A stretch of 64,000 nucleotides of DNA from Azorinus chamasolen. Taxonomy: Eukaryota; Mollusca; Bivalvia; Cardiida; Solecurtidae. Shown one piece after another: positions 9,469 to 63,833 of the stretch. The stretch is taken from assembly GCA_963576725.1 (NCBI GenBank), contig OY755241.1, positions 76,866,701-76,930,700 of the forward strand, written 5' to 3'. Made by a program: the position numbers and the translations under genes. The notes beneath the pieces were generated by a model. It had not been told where the DNA came from. It searched no databases and worked only from the letters and a program-made list of their open reading frames with translations. Each line of letters starts with the position of its first letter. The first letter of the stretch is position 1.

Positions 9469-9627
9469 AAGAATTGTTCCATGTCAAAGTCAACACGCTC
9501 AGGACATATGTCTTCCATATTGGTGATGAAATCATTCACTGGGAGCCGGAGGGCATCACGTTCAAATGAATTACATCCACTGGTGAAGCCAACCACACAT
9601 GTTGTAAATTGGTTCAACATCAAAACA
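9469..9627 (-). CDS. Exon: helical Cys module (C-x7-C-x22-C)
   Basis: The acceptor TTTTTATTTCAG precedes T-GTT-TTG and the donor reads TTCTT|GTAAGT. The 159 nt start and end in phase 2 and give 52 whole codons. Cysteines at exon residues 10, 18 and 41 reproduce C-x7-C-x22-C exactly as in the exons at 58.9 kb and 42.1 kb. Motifs: QFTTCVVGFTSGC and MEDICPERVDF. The predicted segment is mostly helical, with few Gly or Pro. It joins 14052-14189 as TT+T (Phe). This is the most 3' exon I can find. The perfect donor means the gene continues below 9469, but no further exon is apparent there. Confidence 0.75.
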
Positions 9628-9692
9628 CTGAAATAAAAAGATCATCATTTCTTTGAAAAGTAGTAATAAAGTCATTATTTGTTATATGAATT

Positions 9693-9800
9693 TTAACCCG
9701 TTCCTTCCTATAAACGCATTTTCACAACTTTGTAAAAACAGTAGACCAAGATCTGATGGCTCCTGTAGAAAATTAATGATCTTTAGTACCCACCCCAAAC
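9693..9800. mobile_element. TTAA-P MITE remnant
   Basis: TAACCCGTTCCTTCCTATAAACGC, then half a core (AACAGTAGACCAAGATCTGATGGCTCC), then divergence. 9800-9998 holds nothing else identifiable. Confidence 0.5.
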
Positions 9801-9997
9801 TGGATGTAAAAGAGTTTGGAATCTATTCACATTCTCATTTGTACTGCTTTGTGTGGAACAGTCAAAATTACTGTTTCTATTTAACCCTTTGAATGAGTAC
9901 AAACAATGTTGATTCAGCTCAAAGGGCTCCCAGAGGAACTCTCTGATGTTGGTCTGCATTATTTGTCATTCAACATCCTCTTGTACAGTAATATAAA

Positions 9998-10115
9998 CAA
10001 GAGGGCCAGAATGGCCCTGATATCCGTCAATAGACAATCAGAGAAGATTTTCAAAGTTTTCACTATATGTTTCTATAGAAAACTAGCCGGCCCTAGGGCT
10101 GGGCCAATTTTGTCA
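9998..10115 (+). mobile_element. HLE4 5' fragment
   Basis: ACAAGAGGGCCAGAATGGCC followed by GATTTTCAAAGTTTTCAC and AAAACTAGCCGGCCC, as at the start of the full element at 29799. Confidence 0.65.
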
Positions 10116-10119
10116 TCCA

Positions 10120-10490
10120 TTAGATGCACCCCTGACAAGCTAAGTACTTTTCATCAATTATATGTACTCCTGACTAACTATCAGTAATTACTTGTCACCC
10201 ATTATATGTACTCCTGACAAGAGAAGTACTTGCCACCCATTATATGAACCCCTGACAAGCTAAGTACTTGCCACCCATTATATGAACCCCTGACAAGAGA
10301 AGTACTTGCCACCCATTATATGAACCCCTGACAAGCTAAGTACTTGCCACCCTGACAAGCTAAGTATTTGCCATCTATTAGATTTCTAACAGACATTAGC
10401 TAAGTACTTGTCCATTAGATGTACCCCTGACAAGCTAAGTACCACCAATTAGATGTACCCCTGACAAGTTAAGTAATTGTCCATACATTG
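10120..10490. repeat. Minisatellite, ~38-40 bp unit
   Basis: About nine imperfect copies of CCCCTGACAAGCTAAGTACT plus TGCCACCCATTATATGAA. It directly follows the HLE4 fragment. Confidence 0.75.
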
Positions 10491-10542
10491 TTCATATAAT
10501 ATTATAAACATTCAAGAGGGAATGAGTTATATCATATATATA

Positions 10543-10700
10543 ATAACCCTTTCCTTCATATAAAGGCCTTTTCACACAATCATTTGCATACAGAGTAGGC
10601 TCAGATCAGAAGTCTCCTTTGGAGGTCTGCTGTGTTTGCTTTTGAAATGACATAGAATGGATTTTACAGCTTTTGTCAAAGCAAAAAGTTTTCTTGAAAG
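10543..10700. mobile_element. TTAA-P MITE, partial
   Basis: TAACCCTTTCCTTCATATAA and a degenerate core with TTTGCATACAGAGTAGGC and CTGTGTTTGC. The right end is not preserved. Confidence 0.55.
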
Positions 10701-10721
10701 GTTAACCATATAAAGACTAAG

Positions 10722-10948
10722 TTAACCCATTCCCGCATATAGACGCCTTTTGACGCTTCTGTAAAAGTCACTTTGTGAAACCATTGTGATAAATAGAACA
10801 TTTGCTCCGACAGGAGCAAATGCTCTATTTATCACAGTGGTTTCAAACTACAAAATTTTAAACTTTTCCTTTTCTCTAGTTTATGCTCCTTTTCAGTTGA
10901 TTTATTCAAAGAGGTTGGGTGTAAAAATAGCCTAAGTGGGAATGGGTT
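10722..10948. mobile_element. TTAA-N MITE
   Basis: TTAACCCATTCCCGC to GGGAATGGGTTAG, with core GATAAATAGAACATTTGCTC / GAGCAAATGCTCTATTTATC. Confidence 0.8.
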
Positions 10949-11052
10949 AGTAAATATTCATGATGTTATTTCTTACACCCAGAGTTTCTACAATAACAAT
11001 TTTATTATATACTGTACAATTCCTAATACACACTTCTGGGGAGTTACCTATT

Positions 11053-11124
11053 TTAACCCTTTCCTGCATAGGCTGTTTTTAGACCCAACCTCTACCAAAA
11101 AAAGGAGCATTAACTAGAGAAAAG
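11053..11124. mobile_element. TTAA-N MITE, left half (interrupted)
   Basis: TTAACCCTTTCCTGCATAGGC through GCATTAACTAGAGAAAAG. The rest of this MITE resumes at about 12947-13088, on the other side of HLE1a. Confidence 0.75.
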
Positions 11125-11626
11125 AACAAGAGGGTCGTCACGGGTGACAAATGCCCCCAAAGTGTTTGACACCGAAATGCATTTTGGTGGAAAAACAATA
11201 CAATGTAATGCAGGTGTAACATGAAATTTTGATGCTGTTAAAAATGACACAGGAGTCAGTTCTTAACATTAGAAACAGAACCTTTGACGATTATGATAGC
11301 TAAGAAAAGAGCCAAGCGTCAAAACTTAGTTAAAAAGGACCCTAAGTCATTCTCAACGTTAAAAAGGACCCTGGGTTGATTGTCAACGTTTAAGGTATAG
11401 GAGATATGCTCTGGACAAGCTTTTTGTATCTGGTAAGATATAGGAGATATGCTCCGGACTGTAAAATTGAGGTCAAAGGTCAAGGTCAAGGTCAGTGATC
11501 TGAAAATGGTACATGACTCTCCCCCATCCCAAGATGAACTCACAAACCAAATTTGGATTCCGTAGCTGGTAAGGTATAGGAGAAATGCTCCAGACAAGCT
11601 TTGTGTAAAATCTAGGTCAAAGGTCA

Positions 11627-11641
11627 AGGTCACAGTGACCT
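11627..11641. promoter_or_regulatory. Consensus ERE-like inverted repeat (AGGTCAcagTGACCT)
   Basis: A perfect 6-3-6 palindrome of nuclear-receptor half-sites inside an HLE1 core. It also occurs at 12232-12246, 12547-12561, 21581-21595, 21728-21742 and 22186-22200. Each is preceded by AAGGTCA direct repeats. Function is not shown. Confidence 0.45.
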
Positions 11642-12808
11642 GAAAATGGTACGCGACACACCGCCATCCCAAGATAAACTCACACATTAAATTTGGAATC
11701 CGCAGCTGGTAAGGTATAAGAGATATTCTCTGGACAACCTTTTTTGTAAAATCGAGGTCGAAGGTCAAGGTCAAGGTGACCTGAAAATGGTACGCGACAC
11801 TCCGCCATCTGAAGGTGATCTCACAAACCAAATTTGGAATCCGTATCTGGTAAGGTATAGGAGATATGCTCTGGACAAGCTTTTTGTAAAATCGGTCAAG
11901 GTCAAGGTCAAGGTTAAGGTCATAGTGACCTGGAAATGGTACATGACATTCCGCCATCCCAAGATGAACGCACACACCAAATTTGGAATCTGTAGCTGGT
12001 AAGGTAAAGGAGATATGCTCCGGACAAGCTTTTTGTAAAATCGGTCAAAGGTCATGGTCAAGGTCACAGTGATCTGAAAATGGTATGCGACACTCCTCCA
12101 TCCAAAGATGAACTCACACACCAAATTTGGAATCCTTAGCTGGTAAGGAATAGGAGATATACTCCGGACAAGCTTTTTGTAGCTGGTAAGGTATAAGCGG
12201 TTTTTAAAATCGAGGTCAAAGGTCAAGGTCAAGGTCACAGTGACCTGAAAATGGTACGCGACACTCCGCCATCCCAAGATGAACTCACACACCAAATTTG
12301 GAATCTGTAGCTGGTAAGGTAAAGGAGATATGCTCCGGACAAGCTTTTTGTAAAATCGGTCAAAGGTCATGGTCAAGGTCACAGTGATCTGAAAATGGTA
12401 CGCGACACTCCTCCATCCCAAGATGAACTAACACACCAAATTTGGAATCCTTAGCTGGTAAGGTATAGGAAATATACTCCGGACAAGCTTTTTGTAGCTG
12501 GTAAGGCACAAGCTTTTTTTAAAATCGAGGTCAAAGGTCAAGGTCAAGGTCACAGTGACCTGGAAATGGTACGCGACACTCCGCCATCCTAAGATGAACT
12601 CACACACCAAATTTGGAATCTGTAGCTGGTAAGGTAAAGGAGATATGCTCCGGACAAGCTTTTTGTAAAATCAAGGTCAAAGGTCAAGGTCACAGTGACA
12701 TGAAAATGGTACGCGACACTCCCCCATCCCAAGATGAACTCACACACCAAATTTGGTATCCGTAGCTGATGTGACAAAGGAAATATACTCCGGACAAAAG
12801 GTACACAC

Positions 12809-12897
12809 ACCCACACACCCACCCACCCACCCACACACCCACCCACCCACACACCCACCCACCCACACACCCACACACACACACACCCACACACGCA
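12809..12897. repeat. (CCCACA)n-type microsatellite
   Basis: ACCCACACACCCACCCACC tract near the 3' end of HLE1a. The same tract type sits at the same place in HLE1b (23083-23173) with different internal order. Confidence 0.9.
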
Positions 12898-12946
12898 CGG
12901 TGCGATCACTATATGCCGCCAAAGCCTAGCTTTGGGGGCATAAAAA

Positions 12947-13088
12947 TATCATGATTGTGTAGTATAGAAACCATTGTGATAAAAAGAGCATTTGCTCCAT
13001 AGGAGCAAATGCTCTATTTATCACAATGGTTTTTATAAAGTGACTTTTACACAGATGTAGAAAGGTGTATTTATTGAGGAAAGGGTTG
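12947..13088. mobile_element. TTAA-N MITE, right half (interrupted)
   Basis: Begins TATCATGATTGTGTAGTA, then the core hairpin AAAGAGCATTTGCTCC, and ends GAGGAAAGGGTTGAA. Together with 11053-11124 it makes a full-length MITE. Confidence 0.75.
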
Positions 13089-13089
13089 A

Positions 13090-13168
13090 ATGAAATCAAT
13101 GCAGAAAGCTCTCAAGGACGCTCTTATGGGAGCTTTCTGCATTACTTTCAGTCTGCATTAAACTAATG
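13090..13168. repeat. G palindrome
   Basis: ATGCAGAAAGCTC...GGGAGCTTTCTGCAT with an outer CTGCATTAA. Confidence 0.6.
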
Positions 13169-13330
13169 CCATTACTTTTAAACGTCTGTATTTCTTTATT
13201 TAACCCTCTTCTTCATATACACGTAATTGCATTTGCAAACAGAGTAGACCAACACACACACACAAACACACATCCACCAGATAACAGCGGATGTTTATTA
13301 GAGAGGAGGCATTTATTAGGCAGAATACTA

Positions 13331-13574
13331 TTAACCCTTCCCTTGCTATTCGCGTCAATATACCTACCCTTAAATAGTGCAGACCCAGATGAGACAGCTC
13401 CTGCAGGAGCTGTCTCATCAGGGTCTGCACTATTTACAAGTTGATTGTGCAACCAGTGCATTCTACAGCAGTGATTGCACAGCGAAATACTTGTACACAG
13501 TGAAGATATATGTAATTATACAAAGATGTAAAGAAGGAGAACTGTATTTTAAAATTCAGCAAGCTAAGGGTTAA
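13331..13574. mobile_element. TTAA-S MITE
   Basis: TTAACCCTTCCCTTGC to GCTAAGGGTTAA, with core AGACAGCTCCTGCAGGAGCT flanked by TAGTGCAGACC. Other copies are at 44922-45171 (inverted) and 28230-28408 (truncated). Confidence 0.8.
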
Positions 13575-13584
13575 CAGAGTTCCT

Positions 13585-13700
13585 GATTATAAGATGTGTA
13601 AAATTAATCATTTTCAATAATAGACAGTATAGGTTTTGGTTGAGAAATCACGATTTTGTATTTGGTTGCACACCGTTATCTGTAGCTCTGTATAAATGTT
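13585..13700. repeat. D element fragment
   Basis: AAAATTAATCATTTTCAATA, TATAGGTTTTGGTTGAGAAA and TATCTGTAGCTCTG match one half of the D family. Confidence 0.5.
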
Positions 13701-13928
13701 TAACCCATTCCCGCATATTGACGCCTTTTGGTGCTTCTGTAAAAGACACTTTGTGAAACCATTGTGATAAATAGAGCATTTGCTCCACAGGAGCAAATGC
13801 TCTATTTATCACAATGGTTTCAAAACTACACAATTCAGAAAAATTCCTTTTCCCTAGTTAATGCTCCTTTTTGGTAGATTTAATCAAAGGGATTAGGTAT
13901 AAAAATAGCCTAAGTGGGAATGGGTTAA
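13700..13928. mobile_element. TTAA-N MITE
   Basis: TTAACCCATTCCCGC to GGGAATGGGTTAA, with an almost perfect core palindrome around CTCCACAGGAG. Confidence 0.85.
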
Positions 13929-14051
13929 GCACAAACAGTTTACAATTGATCAATTCATTCCATAACAACAAGTACCTACCTACAGAAGGGTTCCTCATCT
14001 CCTAACCATGATCTCAGTCGATGCATACCTCCTGGGCCTGATAAATGTCAC

Positions 14052-14189
14052 AAACCAATGCCATCACAGAAGCCTACCAGCTGGTGTGAGGCTTCTGTTA
14101 AGCCAGTCTGCAGTCTGTCTATTGCATTCTCTGTGCAGATCTCTTCTGACATGATGTAATCCACAACCGATGATGTCACTTCATATTGG
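14052..14189 (-). CDS. Exon: helical Cys segment
   Basis: The acceptor CTTGTTTCTAG precedes C-CAA-TAT-GAA. The donor GGTTT|GTGACA is weak (GTGACA, not GTAAGT). It is chosen because the next codon boundary leaves 45 whole codons and a phase 2 end that fits the 9.5 kb exon; a few bases later the frame hits TGA at 14048. Motifs: SEEICTENAIDRLQ and LVGFCDGIG, two cysteines 22 residues apart. Joined to 18257-18466 as AG+C (Ser). Alternatively this could be the last exon, with the TGA as stop, but the well-formed in-phase exon at 9.5 kb argues against that. Confidence 0.65.
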
Positions 14190-14329
14190 CTAGAAACAAG
14201 AGAGCAGCATGTATATTTTAACCCGTCAGATGCTAAATATTTCAAAGTGGAAAGGCCAGTCAGTGTTTAGCTGTGAAAGATATTTTTCTAGAGAGGTTTC
14301 AATGAGAAACAGTGCAGACACTGATCAGA

Positions 14330-14430
14330 GGGCTGTACTAGGGGCCTAAAGATCCTCTGCCCCTGTGTTCACAAAGGGCTCTACTAGGGGCCTAAAGATC
14401 CTCTGCCCCTGTGTTCACAAAGAACAAAGG
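14330..14430. repeat. Two-copy tandem duplication, ~60 bp
   Basis: GGGCTGTACTAGGGGCCTAA and GGGCTCTACTAGGGGCCTAA, each followed by AGATCCTCTGCCCC. Confidence 0.7.
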
Positions 14431-14509
14431 GCTTCAATTTCAAATCAGCATGAGCATCCAATCTACGTTATAAATTTTGTTTGTGAATAGATGATTTAAA
14501 ATTTTGCAG

Positions 14510-14636
14510 TTCTGAAACCATTGTGATAAATGGAGCATTTGCTCCCCATGAGCAAATGCTCTATTTATCACAATGGTTTCAAAAGGTGACTTTTTCAGAG
14601 GCGTAGAAAGGCATACTAATGGAGGCAAGGGTTAAC
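14510..14636. mobile_element. TTAA-N MITE, right part
   Basis: Core GATAAATGGAGCATTTGCTC with its palindromic partner, ending GGAGGCAAGGGTTAA. A weak TTAA-P remnant (AGTAGATCCAGATCAGATGG) follows at about 14770-14870. Confidence 0.65.
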
Positions 14637-14940
14637 TCAAGTTTCAACTTTGTATATATGTGTAAACTTGCTAGTGGATTTTGAATGACAAACAGTGCAG
14701 TCCCTGATCAAAGGGCTCCTTAAAGGTCTACACAGTTTGCAAATAACAGTGCATGCATTTCCCAGATTGAAACAGTTAATTCATATAAACACCTTTTCAC
14801 GCCTTCCCTAAAAGAGTAGATCCAGATCAGATGGCTAACGTTGACTGGTCTCTTTGTTTGCTTAGTATATAAATGTATACTACTGATAGAAGTCTGATGT
14901 TTTCTACCAAGGTAAAATATTCCCTTGGTCATAATGCCAT

Positions 14941-16833
14941 TTAAAACTAGAACTATCACTAAAGGTGATGAATACCCCCACACGGCAGCCTTGATTGCAA
15001 ATCCAAGTTTTGAACATGTAACAGGACCAAATAACAAAACTACCCAAAGTTCAAAGAGAGAAAATTCTGTAACTTATGCCAAGTATCAAGTGAATCAGGT
15101 TGAAATTGAAGGAGGAGTTCAAAGTACAAGATTTTGCCTGCCAATTTCAAGGCCAAAGGTCAATGTCAAGGTCACAGAGACCTGAAATTTGTGTCTTGCA
15201 CATCTACTACTTCTGAGTAACATTTATGCCAAGTATCAAGTAAATCAGGTTGAAAGTGAAGGAGGAGTTCGCCGTACAAGATTTTGCCTGCCAATTTTAA
15301 GACCAATTTCAAGGCCAAAGGTCAAGGTCACAGAGATTTTAAATTTGTGTCTTGCACATCTACTACTCCTGAGTAACATTTATGCCAAGTATCAAGTGAA
15401 TCAGGTTGAAAGTGAAGGAGGAGTTCAAAGTACAAGATTTTGCCTGCCAATTTCAAGACCAATTTCAAGACCAACGGTCAAGGTCAAGGTCACAGAGACC
15501 TGAAATTTGTGTCTTGCACATATACTACTCCTGAGTAACATTTATGCCAAGTATCAAGTGAATCAGGTTGAAAGTGAAGGAGGAGTTCAAAGTACAAGAT
15601 TTTGCCTGCCAATTTCAAGACCAATTTCAAGGCCAAAGGTCAAGGTCAAGGTCACAGAGACCTGAAATTTGTGTCTTGCACATATACTACTCCTGAGTAA
15701 CATTTATGCCAAGTATCAAGTGAATCAGGTTGAAAGTGAAGGAGGAGTTCGCCGTACAAGATTTTGTCTGCCAATTTCAAGACCAATTTCAAGGCCAAAG
15801 GTCAAGGTCAAGGTCACAGAGACCTGAAATTTGTGTCTTGCACATCTACTACTCCTGAGTAACATTTATGCCAAGTATCAAGTGAATCAGGTTGAAAGTG
15901 AAGGAGGAGTTCAAAGTACAAGATTTTGCCTGCCAATTTCAAGACCAATTTCAAGGCCAAACGTCAAGGTCAAGGTCACAGAGACCTGAAATGTGTGTCT
16001 TACACATGTACTACTCCTGAGTAACATTTATGCCAAGTATCAAGTGAATCAGGTTGAAATTGAAGGGGGAGTTCAAAGTACAAGATTTTGCCTGCCAATT
16101 TCAAGACCAATTTCAAGACCAAAGGTCAAGGTCAAGGTCACAGAGACCTGAATTTTGTGTCTTGCACATCTACTACTCCTGAGTAACATTTATGCCAAGA
16201 ATCAAGTGAATCAGGTTGAAATTGAAGGAGGAGTTCAAAGTACAAGATTTTGTCTGCCAATTTCAAGACCAATTTCAAGGCCAAAGGTCAAGGTCAAGGT
16301 CACAGAGACCTGAAATTTGTGTCTTGCACATCTACTACTCCTGAGTAACATTTATGCCAAGTATCAAGTGAATCAGGTTGAAAGTGAAGGAGGAGTTCAA
16401 AGTACAAGATTTTGACTGCCAATTTCAAGACCAATTTCAAGGCCAAACATCAAGGTCAAGGTCACAGAGACCTGAAATTTGTGTCTTACATATCTACTAC
16501 TCCTGAGTAACATTTATGCCAAGTATCAAGTGAATCAGGTTGAATGTGAAGGAGGAGTTCAAAGTACAAGCTTTTGCCAGCCAATTTCAAGACCAATTTC
16601 AAGGCCAAAGGTCAAGGTCAAGGTCACAGAGACCTGAAATTTGTGTCTTGCACATCTACTACTCCTGATTAACAATTATGCCAAGTGTCAAGTGAATCAG
16701 GTTGAAACTGAAGGAGGAGTTCGCCGTACAAGATTTTGCAGACAGACCGACCGCCGGACCGACCGCCGGACCGACCGACCGACCGACAGGCTGATTCCAG
16801 TATACCCCCCTCAAACTCTGTTTGTGGGGGTAT
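14941..16833 (+). mobile_element. HLE2 element, copy a
   Basis: It starts AACTAGAACTATCACTAAAG with GAATACCCCCACAC and ends TTTGTGGGGGTATAAT. About ten 160-bp cores carry GCCAAGTATCAAGTGAATCA, GAAGGAGGAGTTCAAAG and AAGGTCAAGGTCACAGAG. The tail is ACCGACCGCCGGACC. It closely matches 35317-37157. Confidence 0.85.
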
Positions 16834-16924
16834 AATAATTCAGGACATTTGATATTCATGTCATTGCATCTAGTAAAATCTCGATAATTCGAAATTTGGA
16901 TATAGAAGAATCTATATAGAACCT

Positions 16925-17030
16925 TTTAGACAGGCAGCTGCTTAATGCATTATGAGAGTCATGCAGAAAGCTCCAAGAGGTGCTCTATACATGACCTTCA
17001 CCTTGCATTCAGCTGTCACCTGTTTTAAAG
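16925..17030. repeat. G palindrome, diverged
   Basis: CTGCTTAATGCATTATGAGAG, ATGCAGAAAGCTCC and TTGCATTCAGC; one arm is degraded. Confidence 0.45.
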
Positions 17031-17200
17031 ATAAATACTTATATGTATTTGAGTATTTTTAATCAAGATTTTACTGTATTTCTTACTACAATTTTATGAG
17101 AGAAAGGGATAAATCAAATTGTTTTCATACATTAGTCGCAATGATCATGAGAATAAGATCTACCCTTGGGGATTCCATTTTTATAATCCTTTCCTTCATT

Positions 17201-18256: not shown

Positions 18257-18466
18257 CTGCAGATGGAGAGCTTGTCAGCCAGACTATTTCTCACCATAGA
18301 TGCAAGGGCAACAAGTGCACTGGTTCCACACATTGGGTCGCCAAAGTCCTTGGCACAGTTATTATTGTCAAATATATCAATGAGCTTGAGGCATGTGACA
18401 TACAGATAGTGGAGAGATATGGCCCGGCAGCCAATGGTACTGGATATGACACACGGGAGACTCACA
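18257..18466 (-). CDS. Exon: helical Cys module
   Basis: The acceptor TTGTTTTTCAG and the donor ATCTGCAG|GTGAGA are both strong. The 210 nt are phase 2 at both ends, 69 whole codons. Cysteines are at residues 5, 13, 25, 37, 46 and 69. The first, second and fourth give C-x7-C-x23-C, the module signature plus one residue. Motifs: LPCVISSTIGC, DNNNCAKDFGDPMC and LADKLSIC. Like the other signature exons it begins in phase 2, five residues before the first Cys. It joins 24777-24864 as AG+T (Ser). No catalytic motif is seen. Confidence 0.75.
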
Positions 18467-19339: not shown

Positions 19340-19349
19340 AGAACATGCA

Positions 19350-21079: not shown

Positions 21080-23224
21080 ACAAGAGGGTCGTCACGGGTG
21101 ACAAATGCCCCCAAAGTGTTTGACACCGAAATGCATTTTGGTGGAAAAACAATACAATGTAATGCAGGTGTAACATGAAATTTTGATGCTGTTAAAAATG
21201 ACACAGGAGTCAGTTCTTAACATTAGAAACAGAACCTTTGACGATTATGATAGCTAAGAAAAGAGCCAAGGGTCAAAACTTAGTTAAAAAGGACCCTAAG
21301 TCATTCTCAACGTTAAAAAGGACCCTGGGTTGATTGTCAACGTTTAAGGTATAGGAGATATGCTCTGGACAAGCTTTTTGTATCTGGTAAGATATAGGAG
21401 ATATGCTCCGGACTGTAAAATTGAGGTCAAAGGTCAAGGTCAAGGTCAGTGATCTGAAAATGGTACATGACTCTCCCCCATCCCAAGATGAACTCACAAA
21501 CAAAATTTGGATTCCGTAGCTGGTAAGGTATAGGAGAAATGCTCCAGACAAGCTTTGTGTAAAATCTAGGTCAAAGGTCAAGGTCACAGTGACCTGAAAA
21601 TGGTACGCGACACTCCGCCATCCCAAGATAAACTCACACATTAAATTTGGAATCCGTAGCTGGTAAGGTATAAGAGATATTCTCTGGACAACCTTTTTTG
21701 TAAAATCGAGGTCAAAGGTCAAGGTCAAGGTCACAGTGACCTGAAAATGGTACACGACACTCCGCCATATGAAGGTGATCTCACAAACCAAATTTGGAAT
21801 CCGTATCTGGTAAGGTATAGGAGATATGCTCTGGACAAGCTTTTTGTAAAATCGGTCAAGGTCAAGGTTAAGGTCATAGTGACCTGGAAATGGTACATGA
21901 CATTCCGCCATCCCAAGATGAACACACACACCAAATTTGGAATCTGTAGCTGGTAAGGTAAAGGAGATATGCTCCGGACAAGCTTTTTGTAAAATCGGTC
22001 AAAGGTCATGGTCAAGGTCACAGTGATCTGAAAATGGTATGCGACACTCCTCCATCCAAAGATGAACTCACACACCAAATTTGGAATCCTTAGCTGATAA
22101 GGAATAGGAGATATACTCCGGACAAGCTTTTTGTAGCTGGTAAGGTATAAGCGTTTTTTTAAATCGAGGTCAAAGGTCAAGGTCAAGGTCACAGTGACCT
22201 GGAAATGGTACGCGACACTCCGCCATCCCAAGATGAACTCACACACCAAATTTGGAATCTGTAGCTGGTAAGGTAAAGTAGATATGCTCCGGACAAGCTT
22301 TTTGTAAAATCGGTCAAAGGTCATGGTCAAGGTCACAGTGATCTGAAAATGGTACGCGACACTCCTCCATCCCAAGATGAACTAACACACCAAATTTGGA
22401 ATCCTTAGCTGGTAAGGTATAGGAGATATACTCCGGACAAGCTTTTTGTAGCTGGTAAGGCATAAGCTTTTTTTAAAATCGAGGTCAAAGGTCAAGGTCA
22501 AGGTTACAGTGACCTGGAAATGGTACGCGACACTCCACCATCCTAAGATGAACTCACACACCAAATTTGGAATCTGTAGCTGGTAAGGTAAAGGAGATAT
22601 GCTCCGGACAAGCTTTTTGTAAAATCAAGGTCAAAGGTCAAGGTCAAGGTCACAGTGACATGAAAATGGTACGCGACACTCCTCCATCCCAAGATGAACT
22701 AACACACCAAATTTGGAATCCTTAGCTGGTAAGGTATAGGAGATATACTCCGGACAAGCTTTTTGTAGCTGGTAAGGCATAAGCTTTTTTTAAAATCGAG
22801 GTCAAAGGTCAAGGTCAAGGTTACAGTGACCTGGAAATGGTACGTGACACTCCGCCATCCTAAGATGAACTCACACACCAAATTTGGAATCTGTAGCTGG
22901 TAAGGTAAAGGAGATATGCTCCGGACAAGCTTTTTGTAAAATCAAGGTCAAAGGTCAAGGTCAAGGTCACAGTGACATGAAAATGGTACGCGACACTCCC
23001 CCATCCCAAGATGAACTCACACACCAAATTTGGTATCCGTAGCTGATGTGACAAAGGAAATATACTCCGGACAAAAGGTACACACACCCACACACCCACC
23101 CACCCACACACCCACCCACCCACACACCCACACACACACACACCCACACACACACACACCCACCCACACACGCACGGTGCGATCACTATATGCCGCCAAA
23201 GCCTAGCTTTGGGGGCATAAAAAT
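21080..23224 (+). mobile_element. HLE1 element, copy b
   Basis: Near-identical over most of its length to 11125-12946 but longer: one ~315-bp double unit (around 22680-22995) is an extra near-copy of the preceding block. Flanking sequence is unrelated, so this is a separate insertion. Confidence 0.85.
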
Positions 23225-24776: not shown

Positions 24777-24864
24777 CTGAGTATCACTGTGGGGGTTTGT
24801 ATAATAATAGAAACAGCCGAGAAAACACATTCTGTTGCATTCTGCAAGTCACAAACCCCATCAT
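24777..24864 (-). CDS. Exon: short helical Cys segment
   Basis: The acceptor TTTCTATTTACAG and the donor ACTCAG|GTAGGA bracket 88 nt, phase 1 in and phase 2 out, 28 whole codons. DGVCDLQNATEC aligns with DTVCDLDKAAEC in the 58.9 kb exon: same C-x7-C, same Asp-Leu after the first Cys, same Ala and Glu. It joins the Ly6 exon as T+AT (Tyr) and the next exon as AG+T (Ser). It was missed by length filters because it is under 30 codons. The homology to another exon of the gene is the main support. Confidence 0.7.
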
Positions 24865-27643: not shown

Positions 27644-27779
27644 AATCAAAATCATCATTTTCATTGCATTTGTGTCCATTACAACAATAACAATTGTCCA
27701 AGCCTTCACAATCAGAGCACATGTCCTCGTCAGCGCAGCTCTTGTGGAGTTCTCCGTCTACATACTTTGTAAGGCACAT
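27644..27779 (-). CDS. Exon: second half of Ly6/uPAR-type domain
   Basis: The acceptor TTTGTGTATTGCAG precedes ATG-TGC-CTT and the donor is GATT|GTAAGT. The 136 nt enter in phase 0 and leave in phase 1. The 45 codons hold eight cysteines and end NCYCCNGHKCNEN; CC-x4-C-N is the closing signature of Ly6/uPAR (three-finger) domains. The internal ATG is a splice-joined codon, not a start. With 34101-34186 it forms a domain of about 73 residues with 13 cysteines, against 8-10 in most Ly6 proteins, so it may contain an extra disulfide. The exon is followed by neither a GPI-like tail nor a stop; the reading continues into the 24.8 kb exon. Confidence 0.8.
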
Positions 27780-34100: not shown

Positions 34101-34186
34101 CTGTTGGTGTTTAGGGCAGGCACAAGTAGGCTGATCATTACATTTATCATTGTCCTCTAGCCCAATGCAGGTATAACAATGACGAG
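34101..34186 (-). CDS. Exon: first half of Ly6/uPAR-type domain
   Basis: The acceptor TTTTGTTTTGTTTTAG and the donor CAACAG|GTAAGA are both near-consensus. The 86 nt enter in phase 1 and leave in phase 0, 28 codons. RHCYTCIGLEDNDKC with a C-x2-C opening, then QPTCACPKHQQ, is the standard start of a Ly6/uPAR fold. It joins the preceding Ser-Gly exon as G+CT (Ala), and the following exon opens MCLTKYVDG. Ly6 genes commonly split the domain between two exons, as here. The pair is a phase 1-1 cassette, so it can be inserted or skipped without changing frame. Confidence 0.8.
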
Positions 34187-40650: not shown

Positions 40651-40777
40651 AGGGAATGCAATAAAATGCATCAATATGAGGGAACGGGTTAAAAGGCATC
40701 AATATGAGGGAACGGGTTAAAAGGCATCAATATGAGGGAATGGGTTAAAAGGTATCAATGTGAGGGAATGGGTTAAC
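40600..40777. repeat. Minisatellite, 28-bp unit
   Basis: Five to six copies of AAAAGGCATCAATATGAGGG plus AACGGGTT; it reads as an amplified TTAA-N right end. Confidence 0.8.
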
Positions 40778-41014
40778 ACAGTTTTGCACTAAGCCCTCTA
40801 TATGTACTGATACAATTTGACAGAACTTATGTTGACACATTTCTTCAAACACTTGTTTCATACTGGTCAAGAGCCTGTGAACCATCACACGTTTCTCAGC
40901 TACCAGGACACTAAGGCTTAGGCTCAACACATTTCCAGGCTTCTTCAAACTTCCAACAAAGCTCTGAGATAACATCTCCATAATAGCCGCTGTCTCAGCT
41001 GCTGCTGCCAGTAC

Positions 41015-41445
41015 CTGATCCAGAACCTCTGCTCTCAGATTCAAACTTTTTACCCTAAGCTCCAGAACGTTTGCTCTTAGAGCTAGACCCTTTCCTCTTA
41101 TCCCTTTCTCCTTTGCTCTCAGATCCTGCAGTTCCACCATCAGATCCAGATTCTTTATTGTTAGATCCTGACCCTTTGTGTCCAGGTTTAGATCCATTGC
41201 CATCAGGTCCAGAATCTTTGTTCTCAGGTTTCGATCTTTTGTCCCTTTGTCCAGGACTTCCACCATTAGATCCGGATTGTGTGTGAGATCCAGCGTCTCT
41301 ATCAGATCCAGTCTCCCCAGATTCCTTAGAAGATCGAGACTCATCAGATTGAGACTTATCAGATCCAGTGTCTCCAGACCTAGTCTGACTTGATCCAGAA
41401 TTATCACCAGATTTATCCCATCCAGACTGTGGGCGTCCCTGATTG
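41015..41445 (-). CDS. Exon: Ser-Gly-rich linker, with in-frame TAG
   Basis: The acceptor GTGCTAATTTTAG precedes C-AAT-CAG and the donor is GGATCAG|GTACTG. The 431 nt enter in phase 2 and leave in phase 1. The frame set by the upstream exon reads a low-complexity acidic/basic Ser-Gly chain (SGDNSGSSQTRSGDTGSD, KESGSDGGTAGSESKG) with many SG dipeptides, as in glycosaminoglycan-attachment or shell-matrix type linkers. A TAG at 41055-41057 interrupts it 14 codons before the donor; AAG at that site would fit the repeat. A 239-residue open frame in another phase (40745-41464) is a by-product of the TCTGGATCTGAT periodicity. An alternative donor before the TAG (AAAC|GTTCTG) would also be phase 1 but is weak. 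Confidence 0.6.
41055..41057 (-). other. In-frame TAG in the Ser-Gly exon
   Basis: Reads TCT GGA GCT TAG GGT AAA AAG in the frame forced by the flanking splice phases. It is a nonsense mutation, a sequencing error, or a sign that this exon is optional. Confidence 0.6.
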
Positions 41446-41629
41446 CTAAAATTAGCACAAACATATTTAGAAAATTGAAACCGGGAATTCTAAAATTTGG
41501 AACATTTTACCCTTTACTTGATCAGTATTCATTACAAGATAATTACAACATGAATATTAATTAACTAATAATTATAATGGACTTCTGTGTAAATGATTAA
41601 AGCAACAGGTTAACATCATTCAAATAGCC

Positions 41630-41855: not shown

Positions 41856-42060
41856 CCCTGCTCATCTAGTAGCTCCATGATTATTCCATACAGACAGGAA
41901 AGGCAGTCCAGTGGATTAATGTTTGGTTCCTCCGGGGGGCAAACAGGCATATTCGGAGATGAAGTCCACCTGACGGTATAATTCTACCACAACAGACTTC
42001 TCCCACCCAACACAGTCATATGTAACCTGATATATGCAGTCCTTTGTTTCTTCAATCATT
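41856..42060 (-). CDS. Exon: helical Cys module with a C6 frameshift
   Basis: The acceptor TTATTTTTTTCCAG and the donor CAGGG|GTAAGG are strong. It enters in phase 2 as CA+A (Gln) from the 54.1 kb exon. Cysteines at exon residues 8, 16 and 39 match the 58.9 kb exon position for position (C-x7-C-x22-C): ETKDCIYQVTYDC, then FISEYAC. After YACLPP a run of six C's (41934-41939 on the plus strand as G's) throws the frame into a stop 6 codons on. With five C's the reading continues through NPLDCLSCLYG and LLDEQG to the donor in phase 2, matching the next exon. Either the homopolymer is mis-called or the allele is broken. Confidence 0.65.
41934..41939 (-). other. Homopolymer frameshift site (C6 in coding sense)
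   Basis: Both halves of the exon are open in different frames on either side of this run. The downstream frame contains LDCLSCLYG and reaches a good donor, so one extra base is implied. Confidence 0.6.
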
Positions 42061-53940: not shown

Positions 53941-54163
53941 TGACAAATAGTATCATCAATGGTAGCCTCTATGTTTTGACTCAAGAAGGACACAGACACA
54001 TCTATAGCATCAATAGGAGAACGCTCATATGGGTCATAGTCTGGGCAGGTATTTGGGTCAAAATTGGCCACAATAGAACCATCACCACAGTTGTCATCAT
54101 AATCATTCCACGCCTGTTGCAGATCTGTCAGAGTTTGGGAAGCCTCCATACAGTTCACTACGT
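53941..54163 (-). CDS. Exon: acidic helical Cys segment
   Basis: The acceptor GTGCTATAAG precedes AC-GTA-GTG and the donor is TTTGTCA|GTAAGT, a consensus donor. The 223 nt enter in phase 1 and leave in phase 2, 73 whole codons. Cysteines at residues 4, 25, 39 and 73: VVNCMEASQTLTDL, DYDDNCGDGS, PNTCPDYDPYE and IDDTIC. Strongly acidic (many Asp). The first residue is T+AC (Tyr) from the 58.9 kb exon, and the last is CA+A (Gln) into the 42.1 kb exon. It separates two copies of the C-x7-C-x22-C signature. The acceptor is weak in pyrimidines, the only soft point. Confidence 0.75.
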
Positions 54164-54231
54164 CTTATAGCACAATTTGACATTCTTCTTGGATCTGGTT
54201 TGGAAAACAGAAGCAAAATAAAACAAGGTAT

Positions 54232-55756: not shown

Positions 55757-55780
55757 ACACTGATGGGCTATACATTCTAA

Positions 55781-57590: not shown

Positions 57591-57609
57591 CCTTTCATTA
57601 ATATTCATC

Positions 57610-58225: not shown

Positions 58226-58404
58226 AAAAGTTGATGTCAGTTGTCTTGGAGGAAAAAAAGTACATGTACCCGTCTGCAGAGTTAACATTCAGCACTCTAC
58301 TAGCAAATGTGTAATTGCCTTCACTAGAAGTTTGGATACAGAGAGATGGAGAATGTCAAACAGTTTATATCCTACTGAGGTACTCACTGTTTCATTAGCA
58401 TATA

Positions 58405-58608
58405 CAGTAAAACCTCTCTATAATGGTCACTAAATTACAGCAAGTATTTAGTGTTAAAGGCAGATGGCTGCTTAAAGCAAGGTGAAAGTAAAACAGAATG
58501 CTCCTATAGGAGCGTTCTGTTTTACTTTCACCTCGCTTTAAGCGGCCACCTGCCCTAAATGCCAAATAATTAACACAAATTAGTGTCCATTATAGAGACA
58601 TTTTACTG
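58405..58608. mobile_element. CAGT-T MITE, full length
   Basis: CAGTAAAACCTCTCTATAAT to CATTATAGAGACATTTTACTG, TA on both sides, 204 bp; inner palindrome AACAGAATGCTCCTATAGGA. Ends 95 bp from the exon at 58703. Confidence 0.85.
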
Positions 58609-58702
58609 TAAATTGTTCGACAATCATGTTCTATCAAGCAATGTGAGAAACTACATTTCAGCATTTGCAAAGCATGCTAAAAATCAAACAACATCAAATT
58701 AC

Positions 58703-58953
58703 ATGCATATTTCCTCATCAGTAGGTCCAATTCATGTTGTTCCTCATTTTGGCACTCGGCAGCCTTGTCTAGGTCACACACTGTGTCCAGATCAATCTTT
58801 GTGGTCTCGCATACAAGAAGCTGCAAGTTATTATCACAGTAGGAGTTGCCAACCAATCCTTGAAGTCTTGTCAGTCCATTATTTATGCTGAGTCGCTCAC
58901 TATCACAATCACCAATTTCTTCATAGAGGCATTCTAGGGATTTGATCACATGC
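58703..58953 (-). CDS. Exon: helical Cys module (C-x7-C-x22-C), long form
   Basis: The acceptor TTTTCTGCAAATTTCAG and the donor TATGCAT|GTAATT bracket 251 nt, phase 2 in and phase 1 out, 83 whole codons. Cysteines at residues 8, 16, 39, 48, 59 and 67. The first three form the signature (SLECLYEEIGDC, VGNSYC); the last two, DTVCDLDKAAEC, are the segment that is a separate exon at 24.8 kb. It reads mostly helical and acidic. The apparent start at GTG 58949 is not a start: the coding reads through from the acceptor. Upstream it needs two bases from a phase 2 exon, which the 63.8 kb exon does not supply, so an exon is missing between them. It can also splice in frame to the Ly6 exon or the 24.8 kb exon (all phase 1). 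Confidence 0.8.
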
Positions 58954-58976
58954 CTGAAATTTGCAGAAAAGACAAT

Positions 58977-59190
58977 TAACCCATTACTTCATAGGCTATT
59001 TTAAAACCCAATGTCTTTAAATTAATCTATTAAAAAGGAGCATTTAATAGAAAAAAGGAAAAATTTAGAATTGTTTAGTTTTGAAACCATTACGACAAAC
59101 AGCATTTGCGCTTATAGAACAAGACTAGTACTCAATATCACATTAGTTTCAAAAAGTGACTTTTACACAGATGTCAAAAGTCATCTACAT
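58977..59190. mobile_element. TTAA-N MITE, eroded, beside a splice acceptor
   Basis: TTAACCCATTACTTCATAGGC to ACTTTTACACAGATGTCA, core damaged. It begins 22 bp upstream of the acceptor AG at 58954-58955, just outside the pyrimidine tract. Confidence 0.7.
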
Positions 59191-59560
59191 GTATATGTCA
59201 AAAAAGTGACCTTGATCTAATTTCAAATATCTTTATATCAACTTAATTTAAGGCCTTTACCAAAACCATCTGTATACCAAAGATGAATTGCCTAGCATTT
59301 GTAGTTCAGACATTATAACAATATTAAAGTTTGTTAAAAGCGACGAAGTTTTTGAAATAGTGAACTTGACCTTGACCTGATTTCACGTATCCTTGTATTA
59401 AGTGAAAGGCCTTCACCCAAGCTATCTGCATATCAAACATGAATTGTCTAGCTTACGTAATTAAGATGTTACTTATGCAATGTTAAAGTTTTAAACGACG
59501 ACACACTGACTGCCCGCCAGCCAGCCCGCCCAAAAAGCCAAAACATGTCGGCCCGCCCAT
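59190..59560 (+). mobile_element. HLE13 element, two cores
   Basis: TGACCTTGATCTAATTTCA and TTGACCTTGACCTGATTTCA ~165 bp apart, AGGCCTTCACCCAAGC, then CGACGACACACTGAC and CCGCCAGCCAGCCCGCCC. 59560-59867 shows nothing identifiable. Confidence 0.55.
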
Positions 59561-59867
59561 ATTAATTGCTGATCTATATGATTGTATTCATGTTCACCTT
59601 CAATAATGTTCTTTGATATAATGTATTCAAGAAATAGTTGAGTAATTTAGGAGTATGATATTAAGCAAATATACTGAATTCCAATTTGCTAAGGAAATTC
59701 ATTGGGAGAGCGAGGATGTGTTACAGAGCTATGAAAACGATACAATGTATTCAAATATTATGTTTTGATATAATTTAGAAATGGGTTATCAAAATCATAT
59801 TGAGTTATTATAAAGAAATGTATAAATTGTGAAGAATTAGTGCACTGATGAGTCTACACAGATATTA

Positions 59868-60106
59868 GTTAAGCCATTCCCACATAGGTTATTTTTAGAT
59901 CTAATCACTTTGAATAAATCTACCCAAAAGGAGCATTAACTTGAGAAAAGGATTATTTTTAGAATTTTGTAGTTTGGAACCATCGTGATAAATAGATCAT
60001 TAATTTTGCTCCTATAGGAGCAAATGCTCTATTTATCACAATGGTTCCAACAGGTGATTTTTACAGAGGCATAGAAAGTCTTATTTATGGAGGAAAGGTT
60101 TAAATA
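59868..60106. mobile_element. TTAA-N MITE
   Basis: GTTAAGCCATTCCC to GGAGGAAAGGTTTAA; core GCTCCTATAGGAGCAAATGC. Confidence 0.75.
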
Positions 60107-60279
60107 ATTGCAGATATAACTGATTGATCTCTGAAGACTCAGCTTTGGAAATTGCTGGTCCTGTTAAGCATGATAATCAGTCTTATCGATGTAATTGAAC
60201 AAACATTAGGACAGCCTGACCAGCATTGTGCAAAAAAAGTTTGTTAAGCTATGGCTAAACCTCTAAATTAAGGTGACAC

Positions 60280-60690
60280 TAAGATGTAACAAAGATAGGC
60301 TGTGAAGGTTTGAAGACAACAGATTAGTATGAGAGGCAGTGGTCTTTGTCGACAATGACAGACGAACATATATATAATGAGAGGCAGTAATTAGTGTAAT
60401 TGGGAGTTTGTACAGAATGAAAGGTGGATGATGAAAGATGAATGGAAGAAGATGGTTGGTTGATAAGAGTTGTGTGGGTGTGGATAGAATCAGGAGAATT
60501 GAGAGAGAGTTGAGGTTGAGAGTACGAAAGTAATATTGAACAGTTAAGACAGTAACAGTTGAAGTGAAGAGTAGAAATTTGAAGTTAGGAGCGAAGAGAT
60601 GAAGATTAGGGTTAAAGATGTAAGGCGGACAGAATATGATAAGATATAAAGTAAAGGATAGAAACACAGCATGCAAGTGGCTTATAGGCT
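60280..60690. repeat. Strand-asymmetric purine-rich tract
   Basis: About 400 bp of A/G-dominated sequence with TGAGAGGCAGT twice and many GAAGA/GATGA words. The 137-codon minus-strand frame follows from the missing stop words and is rejected as coding. Confidence 0.6.
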
Positions 60691-60731
60691 AAATACGCTA
60701 GAGTCGTAGAGCGGACCCCAGTGACAGTAGC

Positions 60732-60963
60732 TTAACCCATTCCCGCATAGACTATTTTTAGACCCAACCTTTTTTAATAAATCTACCGAAAAGGAGAATT
60801 AACTAGAGAAAGGGAAAGTTTTAGAATTTTGTAGTTTGAAACCATTGTGGTAATTAATACAACATTTGCTCCTATGGGAGCAAATGCTCTATTTATCACA
60901 ATGGTTTGTTAAAGTGACTTTTACACAAGCATCAAAAGGGGTCAATATGCGGAAATGGGTTAA
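60732..60963. mobile_element. TTAA-N MITE
   Basis: TTAACCCATTCCCGC to GGAAATGGGTTAA; core CATTTGCTCCTATGGGAGC. Its right TTAA is shared with the next copy. Confidence 0.8.
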
Positions 60964-60992
60964 CCCATCCCCACATAGGCTATTTTTAAAAA
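60960..60992. mobile_element. TTAA-N MITE, left end (interrupted)
   Basis: TTAACCCATCCCCACATAGG and CTATTTTTAAAAAA, then HLE6b; the MITE resumes at about 62060 (AATGAATAAATCTAC) and ends GGACAGGGTTAA at 62229. Confidence 0.75.
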
Positions 60993-62059
60993 AACAAGAT
61001 GTGTTTGTGAAACACTATACCCCCTCAATATGATATTTGACCATGAAGGACGACCTTGATCTTGACATGTCACCCCTCAAACTGTGCAGCTTCCTGGGAT
61101 ACACATGCATACCAAATATCAAGTCTGTATCTCTAATGGTTCAAAAGTTATGGCCAATGTTAAAAGTTGGTGACCTTTGACCATGAAGGATGACCTTGAC
61201 ATGTCACCCATCAAACTGTGCAGCTTCATGAGATACACATGCATACCAGTATCAAGGCTGTATATCTACTGGTTCAAATGTTATGGCCAATGTTCATGAC
61301 CTTTGACCTTCAAAGATGACCTTGACATGTCACCTCTCAAACTGTGCAGCCAAATGAGAAACACATGTATACCAACTATCGAGTCTGTATATCTACTGGT
61401 TCAAAAGTTATGGCCAATGTTAAAGTTGGTGACCTTTGACCCTGAAAGATGACCTTGACATGTCACCCCAAACTGTGCAGCTTCTTGAGATACACATGTA
61501 TACCAAATGTCAAGCCCGTATCTCTACTGGTTCAAAAGTTATGGCCAATGTTAAAGTCGGTGACCTTTGACCCTGAAAGATGACCTTGACCTTAACATGT
61601 CACCCCCAAACTGTGCAGCTTCATGAGATACACATGCATACCAAATGTCAAGTCTGTATCTACAGGTTCAAAAGTTATGGCCAATGTTAAAGTCGCTGAC
61701 CTTTGACCCTAAAAGATGACCTTTACCTTGACATGTTGCCCCTCAAAATGTGCAGCTTCATGAGATACACAAGCATGCCAAATATCAAGTCTCTATCTCC
61801 ACTGGTCCAAAAGTTATGGCCAATGTTAAAGTCGGTGATTTGACCCATATATTTGACCTTGAAGGATGACCTTGAACTTGACATGTCACCCCTCAAAATG
61901 CGCGGCTTTATGAAAGTCATATGCATGCCAAATATCAAGTCTCTATCTGTACTGGATCAAAAGTTATGACCAATGTTAAAGTTGCTGACAAACAAACAGA
62001 CAAACAGACAGACAGGGCAAAAACAATATGCCCCCCAGATTTGATCTGGGGGGCATAAT
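60993..62059 (+). mobile_element. HLE6 element, copy b
   Basis: ACAAGATGTGTTTGTGAAAC start, CCCCCCAGATTTGATCTGGG end hairpin; about seven cores with TGACCTTTGACC and AAAAGTTATGGCCAATG; short ACAAACAGACAAACAGAC tail. Confidence 0.85.
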
Positions 62060-62229
62060 AAAAATGAATAAATCTACAAAAAAGGAAAATATTACAATTT
62101 TATAGTTCTGAAACATTGTGATAAATAGAGCATTTGCTCCTTAGAAGCAAATGTTCTATTTATCACAATGGTTTCAAAAAGTGATTTTTACAGTGGTGTA
62201 GAAAGGCGTATTTATGGAGGACAGGGTTA
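62060..62229. mobile_element. TTAA-N MITE, right part (interrupted)
   Basis: Core GAGCATTTGCTCCTTAGAAG with mirror arm, ending GGAGGACAGGGTTAA. Confidence 0.75.
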
Positions 62230-62285
62230 ATGGAGGACAAATATTATGCAGAAAGCTCCTGAAGAAATCATCATTTCTCACATAC

Positions 62286-62330
62286 CTTCCCTTATCTCCG
62301 AGTTAGAACAACAGGTTAAGATTTCCTTAT
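62286..62330 (-). CDS. Possible 45-nt micro-exon
   Basis: CACGTGTTACAG | 45 nt | GTATGT. It is open only in the phase 1-1 frame, reading KEILTCCSNSEIRE between split codons, and would join the 63.8 kb exon as T+AT (Tyr). It has a plausible acceptor and donor and two cysteines, but no homologue elsewhere in the gene and it does not by itself fix the phase conflict with the 58.9 kb exon. It could be chance. Confidence 0.2.
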
Positions 62331-62451
62331 CTGTAACACGTGTAAGATCACTTTAGAACGTATGACGTCAAGCCATGAAAACCTATGTTTACATGTCATT
62401 TAAACGGCAAAAATACACTTTTTTGATATGTGAGAAAAAGAATCTGATGCT

Positions 62452-62571
62452 CGTTGTCTTTTAAGATCACATGTTCCTAAACTCACCAAGAAAATGTTAT
62501 TAAGCTCGCCAAGGCTCACTTAATGACATTTTCTAAGGCTCGTTTAGGAACATGTGATCTTAAAAGACAAC
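62452..62571. repeat. Hairpin, ~33-bp arms
   Basis: TTTTAAGATCACATGTTCCT and mirror AGGAACATGTGATCTTAAAA, extended by TTGTC/GACAA; the loop region itself carries AAAATGTTATTAAGC/CTTAATGACATTTT mirrors. Confidence 0.8.
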
Positions 62572-62574
62572 TCG

Positions 62575-62740
62575 CAACAGATCCTCTATTTCTATACTAA
62601 ACCCTACACTGGGACCACTCTTTAGAATCATCTAGGAGACTATTCAAAAGAATGGTCACAGTATAGGGTTTGGTAGAGAAATAAAGGAGTTATTCTAGAA
62701 AATGTTTAAATTTATGCATCTTATCTGGACCTCTGTGGTT
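62575..62740. repeat. D element
   Basis: TACTAAACCCTACACTGGG and TATAGGGTTTGGTAGAGAAA; inner arms CTCTTTAGAATCATCT / AAAAGAATGGTCACAG. Confidence 0.65.
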
Positions 62741-62744
62741 TTCA

Positions 62745-63046
62745 ATCTGTTACCTGATATAAACACCATGTGGTGCAATAGTAAACAGAGTACACACAGA
62801 TCATATGACTGCTGTAGGTCTGCTCTGTTTGCTTATGAAATACAGTAAAACCTCTCTATAATGGCCAGTTAAATTACATCAATTATTTTGTGTTAAAGGT
62901 AGGTGGCTGCTTAAAGCAAGGTGAAAGTAAAACAGAACACTCCTATAGGATCGTTCTGTTTTACATTCACCTTGCTTTAAGCAACCACCTGTCCTAAATA
63001 ACATCTAATTAGCATGAAAACACATTTATATTTGGGAAAGGGTTAA
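62745..63046. mobile_element. TTAA-P MITE split by a CAGT-T MITE
   Basis: Left part GTTACCTGATATAAACACC with a shortened core, right part CATGAAAACACATTTATATT to GGGAAAGGGTTAA. The CAGT-T insert is at about 62845-63010; its right TIR is missing. Confidence 0.65.
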
Positions 63047-63099
63047 ACTAGCAGTTTGATTTGGGACTGGTCTATCTATCATAGCCCTTTCAACCCAGG

Positions 63100-63237
63100 A
63101 CATGGCTGCATGTACTGTCAGTGTAGTAGACCAAGATCAGAGGACTCATAAAGGAGCCCTAAAATCAAAGTCTGCGCTGTTTGTCACTGAAAATCATCTT
63201 GTATGTTTAAGCCTTTCACACTGACGGGATTCTATAG
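63100..63237. other. Degenerate P-like core, otherwise unidentified
   Basis: GTGTAGTAGACCAAGATCAG and AAATCAAAGTCTGCGCTG resemble worn core arms. Confidence 0.4.
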
Positions 63238-63457
63238 TTAATCCTTTCCTCTATAAATACGCCTTTCTACGCCTCTGTAAAAGTCACTTTATGAAACCAT
63301 TGTGATAAATAAAGCATTTGCTCCTATAGGAGCAAATGCTTTATTTATCACAATGGTTTTGAACTTCAAAATTTTCCTTTTCTCAAGTTAATGCTCCTTT
63401 TTGGTTAATTTATTCAAAGTGGTTGGATCTAAAAATAGCCTATGGAGGAATGGGTTA
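63238..63457. mobile_element. TTAA-N MITE
   Basis: TTAATCCTTTCCTC to GGAGGAATGGGTTAA; perfect-looking core AGCATTTGCTCCTATAGGAG. Confidence 0.8.
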
Positions 63458-63690
63458 AACATTGGTGGGCTGTTCAACTCTGATTAGGTTTGAAAGGGTT
63501 ATGGTTTACCGTTTCATACTGATAAGACTCTTTAGAAAACATTGATGAACTATTTCACTTTTATTATTCAGGGTAGAAGGAGTTAATATTTAGGATATGT
63601 AGGTATAATTATTACATGCAATCATTTTCATCCAATGACACGTTTTTGTTGAAGAATGTCATGACAGGATTCAAGCACATTTCCAGTCAC

Positions 63691-63833
63691 ATGATCGCTC
63701 TTCCTCTTCTTCCCAGCAGATGGCACGAGACAATGATTCAAAGCACGCTGTCACACTATCAATGCGTGATGCCATCTCTACTGAGCAGTCCTGTTTGTAT
63801 GTCTCTATCTGTGTACTAATCGCTCCAAGGCCC
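63691..63833 (-). CDS. Exon: helical Cys segment (most 5' exon seen)
   Basis: A pyrimidine tract (TTTTCTCAAATTTTCCTCAAG) precedes G-GGC-CTT. The proposed donor is CGATCAT|GTGACT, giving 143 nt, phase 2 in and phase 1 out. Reads GAISTQIETYKQDCSVE, then DSVTACFESLSRAIC and WEEEEE. C-x8-C resembles the C-x7-C opening of the other modules. The frame hits TGA 6 codons after the donor. The phase 1 exit does not fit the phase 2 entry at 58953, so an unseen exon or a different donor is needed. Plus-strand frames over the same bases look like shadows. Confidence 0.6.

Follow-up and report, generated by a model that had tools for sequence, protein, structure and literature searches.

Exons and modules of the window

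The window analysed here, the whole 64,000-nucleotide stretch of Azorinus chamasolen DNA at C7:76,866,701-76,930,700 of a 1.72-Gb assembly, carries on its minus strand eleven exons with AG/GT flanks that encode cysteine-rich modules, a Ser/Gly-rich spacer and a Ly6/uPAR (LU) domain. The exons lie at approximately 63.8, 58.9, 54.1, 42.0, 41.4, 34.1, 27.7, 24.8, 18.4, 14.1 and 9.5 kb, and a second copy of the chain is found on contig C11 of the same genome, within which all comparisons were made. Comparison of the two copies suggests, with a probability that we put at about 0.8, that the window is part of an unprocessed, segmentally duplicated pseudogene whose counterpart on C11 is apparently intact.

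The chain begins with the Cys-rich exon E1 (63616..63833; C11:70080625-70080849), whose acceptor at 63833 aligns with the C11 acceptor, followed by E2 (58703..58953; C11:70082318-70082584, 267 nt), which combines a C-x7-C-x22-C module with the motif CDLxxAxEC, and by a further Cys-rich exon, E3 (53941..54194; C11:70086079-70086336, 258 nt). E4 (41856..42060; C11:70119132-70119335) carries another C-x7-C-x22-C module, and E5 (40831..41445; C11:70119530-70120137, 608 nt) is a Ser/Gly-rich spacer that continues into a Cys-rich stretch, the C11 version being open along its whole length and ending at a GTAAGT donor. The LU domain is divided between E6 (34101..34186; C11:70122331-70122416), which begins with CYTC and lies between introns of phases 1 and 0, and E7 (27644..27779; C11:70125409-70125544), which has CCNGHKCN near its end and lies between introns of phases 0 and 1. 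The short exon E8 (24777..24864; C11:70129861-70129948) repeats the CDLxxAxEC motif, and three exons complete the chain: the Cys-rich E8b (18257..18466; C11:70132896-70133114, 219 nt), of phase 2-2 and with a C-x7-C (CVISSTIGC); the Cys-rich E9 (13980..14189; C11:70135320-70135544, 225 nt), within which lies a GT at 14076-14077 that resembles a donor at first sight; and E10 (9469..9627; C11:70138734-70138892), 159 nt, phase 2-2, with a C-x7-C-x22-C module.

The initial annotation had described minus-strand exons with splice sites here, and they were found near the positions claimed, ten of them between 58.9 and 9.5 kb, together with the C-x7-C-x22-C modules, the S/G-rich exon and both exons of the LU domain. 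Its further statement, that the exons join in phase and all have whole-codon lengths, is not confirmed for the window. With boundaries set from C11, the lengths from E1 to E10 are 218, 251, 254, 205, 615, 86, 136, 88, 210, 210 and 159 nt, and only 4 of 11 (E5, E8b, E9 and E10) are multiples of three. When splice sites are taken from the window by itself, the E1-E2 and E9-E10 joins are out of phase, E5 needs a weak donor if it is to be joined to E6, and E4 requires the removal of one base. At 41058-41489 a second frame of the S/G-rich exon is open as well; it reads as a Leu-Asp-rich open reading frame of 253 residues (40748-41506) and is most likely meaningless.

Three C-x7-C-x22-C modules occur on the minus strand of the window (58836-58931 in E2, 41943-42038 in E4 and 9504-9599 in E10), compared to 0.15 on average and 1 at most in 100 dinucleotide shuffles of that strand. 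Both matches on the plus strand belong to a minisatellite, as copies of one unit. The CDLxxAxEC motif shared by E2 and E8 agrees at 8 of 12 residues, with E=0.017 (E8 as query) and 0.17 (E2 as query) in searches within the window. The LU domain of E6 and E7 contains 13 cysteines, starts with CYTC and ends in CC-x4-CN, and ten canonical positions fit, as assigned here. A CC-x4-CN ending is a hallmark of LU domains. The two exons form a set flanked by phase-1 introns (E6 with a lead of 2 and a tail of 0, E7 with a lead of 0 and a tail of 1). A PDB sequence search, made with the window LU sequence only, returned two weak matches, the better of which is a three-finger protein (E=0.64).

A collinear copy on C11

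A genome-wide protein search, for which the LU part and exons E8 to E10 served as query, yielded 19 matches, which include an ordered series of E6-E10 on C11. The C11 sequence was analysed first over 110 kb (70060001-70170000) and then over 140 kb (70050001-70190000), and all eleven exons are collinear there on one strand, at C11:70.081-70.139 Mb, with protein identities of 91-100% where aligned; for instance, E7 is identical at 45 of 45 residues, and E8b is 95.6% identical over 68 residues. The eleven C11 exons, when joined, are in phase at all ten junctions and give 824 residues with 56 cysteines and no stop. Seven of the eleven have whole-codon lengths, and E1-E4, E8b, E9 and E10 are in phase 2 at both ends, a layout that is open to shuffling. 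The exon order shared with C11 makes it very unlikely that the chain is a chance collection of exons. The proposal of one multi-exon, same-strand locus with Cys-rich modules around a Ly6/uPAR domain and an S/G spacer is right, though its architecture is incomplete, being larger on C11.

The same observations bear on the alternative that the exons are divided among adjacent genes, two or more in number and members of a single family. The introns are long, the modules are strongly diverged, and first and last exons were not found by an exon finder that had no model of them, all of which would suit several genes. Against this stand the 10 of 10 in-phase joins on C11, with acceptable splice sites, and the retention of order and strand by all eleven exons in both copies, and we consider a group of separate genes unlikely.

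Disabling changes in the C7 copy

Lesions were called exon by exon with C11 as the reference, and in-frame indels were left out of the count. The C7 copy has ten disabling changes, namely seven indels that break the frame, two nonsense codons and the loss of one splice donor, and C11 has none in the same exons. E1 has a frame-breaking 1-nt deletion in an A-run, in addition to an in-frame deletion of 6 nt; E2 has lost 16 nt near 58736 and E3 4 nt near 54163, both breaking the frame. In E4 the frame is broken by one extra base in a C-run at approximately 41939. The initial annotation had removed this base from the 42.0-kb exon to restore its frame, a correction that agrees with C11, which is open across the run, but the base is itself one of the ten lesions. 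E5 is the most heavily altered, with nonsense codons at 41055-41057 (TAG) and 40995-40997 (TGA), a 1-nt insertion near 40919, an in-frame 6-nt indel, and AT in place of GT at its donor (40829-40830). In E9, a 14-nt deletion near 14055 and a 1-nt deletion near 14015 are jointly in frame, with a stop between them. E6, E7, E8, E8b and E10 are without a disabling change, E8b being open apart from an in-frame deletion of 9 nt.

It is possible that calling lesions in this way favours C11, the copy used as reference. A broken C11 copy, however, would have stops or breaks of phase in these exons, and none are present. The C7 copy retains its introns, is collinear with an apparently intact paralogue and carries disabling changes, as do unprocessed pseudogenes in general, and the combination of kept exon order and lesions points to an unprocessed, duplicated pseudogene. 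The indels, nonsense codons and lost donor relative to C11 thus speak against the window as a working gene, as it was originally presented; to judge from the genomic sequence, the C7 copy would yield no full-length protein, and a gene annotation at this locus would put a false protein on record.

Substitutions between the copies add a record of constraint. In the aligned codons of the eleven exons there are 30 synonymous and 44 nonsynonymous differences (dS 0.063, dN 0.024, dN/dS 0.38), a departure from neutrality in a binomial test against site proportions (p=9.0e-5); with E8b removed, the figures are 28 and 41, with a ratio of 0.37 and p=1.3e-4. The exons of C7 and C11 are 96.7% identical over 2424 aligned bases, compared to 95.2% over 19045 bases of other aligned DNA, gaps excluded, a value taken from blocks of at least 150 bp that form a single collinear chain, with a 98.4% identical minisatellite array included, E8 omitted and E8b counted as non-exon. 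The substitution pattern indicates a real coding frame that was under constraint during part of the period after the copies separated, which is the pattern expected if one of them stays alive while the other decays.

Strong differences between haplotypes are possible in bivalves, and the 95.2% identity outside exons, with its long collinear blocks, would also fit a single locus present as two haplotypes, one of which was misplaced by assembly. Yet the two copies are on separate contigs of chromosome size (98.5 and 88.0 Mb), their intron arrays occupy different introns, and every disabling change among the eleven exons is in the same copy, by 10 to 0, so that misplaced haplotypes are a less probable account than a group of separate genes. 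Least probable of all is a working C7 gene marred by sequencing or assembly errors, since, despite the one-base homopolymer changes that make up two of the lesions (the E1 A-run and the E4 C-run), a dN/dS below 1 between the copies and an E8b that is open apart from its in-frame gap, the deletions of 16, 14 and 4 nt, the two nonsense substitutions and the GT-to-AT donor change are atypical of consensus errors, and beyond the window one C7 exon has a stop, another has a 20-residue in-frame gap, and the sequence that matches C11 70172957 does so in two different frames.

Architecture of the C11 gene

Around the C11 exons, and on their strand, lie further Cys-rich stretches, two Kunitz domains and an LU domain that is significant in Pfam, the Cys-rich open stretches running along the sequence covered. 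The Kunitz domains (PF00014) occupy two stretches of C11, with 61.5 bits against a cut-off of 21 (E=8.7e-17), and none occurs in the window. The additional LU domain, LU1, is encoded by an exon pair upstream and has the same exon layout as E6-E7 (LU2). It is above the cut-off both for PF00021 (30.6 bits, E=4.9e-7) and for the three-finger family PF00087, where it scores higher (33.4 bits, E=7.9e-8), and is 48% identical to LU2 over 31 amino acids (E=8e-6).

Passages of PMC6600238 describe LU genes as having two exons with flanking phase-1 introns, and LU domains as occurring for the most part singly or together with further LU domains, GPIHBP1, SP-10 and the ectodomains of TGF-beta receptors being named as exceptions; they term the LU domain a 'proto-module' and doubt its status as a mobile module. 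The domain of E6-E7 resembles the LU proteins of these passages in its CYxC start, its CC-x4-CN end and its two exons between phase-1 introns, and differs from them in lying among Kunitz domains and unmatched Cys-rich modules. The gene therefore looks like a counter-example to the view expressed there that LU is not a mobile module, and its two pairs of LU exons, with Kunitz domains and unrelated modules around them, are direct material to set against those doubts. Literature searches found nothing that joins Ly6, three-finger and bivalve, Ly6 domain and Lophotrochozoa, or Ly-6 and shell matrix proteins, which is no proof of absence. The two above-cut-off stretches liken the gene to multidomain extracellular proteins of the Kunitz/BPTI type, and the combination with LU and unmatched modules sets it apart; no Kunitz protein with LU and such modules was found among the literature matches listed, again no proof of absence.

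Acidic open stretches of C11 (at least 35 codons with at least 10% acidic residues) contain 28 C-x7-C on the coding strand, some of them inside Kunitz domains and one or more in a minisatellite, versus 6 on the opposite strand; an order-1 Markov null of 60 strands gave a mean of 4.55 and a maximum of 11. E8b is 30% identical over 46 residues (E=0.006) to the C7 counterpart of the C11 exon at 70071730. No Pfam family was above cut-off for the Cys-rich modules in four scans of 27 pieces, and no relatives were found in bacterial or archaeal genomes or in viral contigs. An AlphaFold model of E2 without an alignment has a mean pLDDT of 34.8. DUF19 (PF01579), which the initial annotation had suggested, was not listed for any of the 27 pieces in the four scans at E values up to 10. 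CPG4 (PF15481) was considered as the identity of the modules and dropped: one C11 exon reached 13.5 and 12.7 bits against a cut-off of 32.7 (E=0.11-0.2), and a whole-genome search with the profile gave nothing at this locus. The only genome match of that profile, at C4:44787905-44788060, is weak (E=0.45) and has an internal stop. The likeness to CPG4 and DUF19 domains lies in the Cys-rich modules, and the S/G-rich stretch could here carry chondroitin-like chains; the difference is that the modules of C11 and the window are below cut-off or unlisted in Pfam. Among the literature matches listed for CPG4, none was on point by title. A WAP-like reading of the C11 exon at 70053895 was made by eye only, and WAP was not listed by the Pfam scan. 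The unmatched module is a candidate new domain family, and the gene may be described as encoding a multidomain extracellular protein with possibly a new module.

The C11 copy would encode a very large modular, probably secreted protein. Many small Cys-rich modules, probably helical and disulfide-bonded and mostly on exons between phase-2 introns, would be strung on flexible spacers rich in Ser/Gly and in Ser/Glu/Lys, with two Kunitz domains and with two LU domains inserted among them as phase-1 exon pairs. Such a protein could serve as an extracellular scaffold or lining, in which knotted modules would resist proteolysis, Kunitz domains would inhibit serine proteases, LU domains would bind a partner, and Ser-Gly pairs beside acidic residues could carry glycosaminoglycan chains. 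It is about an even bet that the C11 gene encodes a giant extracellular protein of an unnamed family of Cys-rich helical modules on phase-2 exons, that two LU domains entered it by shuffling, each as a phase-1 exon pair and in the company of Kunitz domains, that LU is a true mobile module in this lineage, and that the C7 copy is such a gene duplicated over more than 120 kb and dying. The role of a large, secreted, disulfide-rich scaffold, read from the sequence, is more tentative, at somewhat worse than even odds. A 702-nt open stretch at C11:70183945-70184646, mostly of repeated Ser-Glu-Lys, lies in the same region as the Cys-rich exons.

A number of points weigh against this account of the two copies. 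The exon chain was read from genomic sequence alone, the C11 boundaries were picked with phase in view, and the sequence covered on C11 (from 70050001) and on C7 stops short of the first (signal-peptide) and last exons. On C11, E9 has two fair donors, one of which is out of phase, and E1 has a weak donor. E3 and E4 are probably separated there, as the exon finder puts five exons between them. The C11 chain beyond the eleven exons is a draft from this home-made finder, and several draft exons in minisatellite, for instance 70127408-70128401, look false. RNA from the C7 copy could still skip some of its lesions. LU2 is below the PF00021 cut-off, with 11.2 bits versus 24.8 (E=0.56), and 8.6 bits (E=3.4) inside a longer piece. 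A profile built from four modules recovered one further exon, weakly (E=0.07), and did not spread through the C11 gene, so that the notion of one repeated domain rests mainly on the spacing of cysteines. Finally, the C11 stretches that are unmatched on C7 may reflect either loss from C7 or gain on C11.

Extent of the duplication and further copies

Two overlapping sets, comprising 20 C11 stretches and 19 draft exons, were tested against 134 kb of C7. Seven C11 stretches have clear counterparts, including E8b in the window. Those at C11 70071730, 70075218, 70076325 and 70078311 correspond to approximately +71.5 to +99.4 kb in window coordinates, the counterpart at +99 kb being the one with a 20-residue in-frame gap. 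On the other side of the window, C11 70142680 is matched at -23 kb by a counterpart with a stop, and C11 70172957 at -27.5 kb by the match in two frames. The Kunitz stretches and the other C11 stretches tested have no clear counterpart in the 134 kb of C7, where the sequence covered may end too soon for those upstream of 70071730. Between E3 and E4, six of seven C11 stretches have no tblastn match in the same 134 kb, and the stretch at 70094563 matches only a dispersed repeat in C7. The leftover matches between C11 and C7 are weak and outside the collinear order.

Minisatellite-type arrays at 11125-12946 and 21080-23223 of the window are 97.5% (1835 bp) and 98.4% (1678 bp of the latter) identical to one C11 array. 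The C11 array lies between E7 and E8, whereas in the window the first array separates E9 from E10 and the second E8 from E8b. These differing positions indicate that arrays moved or multiplied after the duplication.

More copies of the LU exons are found on C7 at approximately 66.43, 66.72, 68.28, 68.70 and 69.07 Mb, 73-97% identical over the matched parts, so that the LU stretch has been copied more than once. At four of these places, the copies of E7 have the same in-frame stop.

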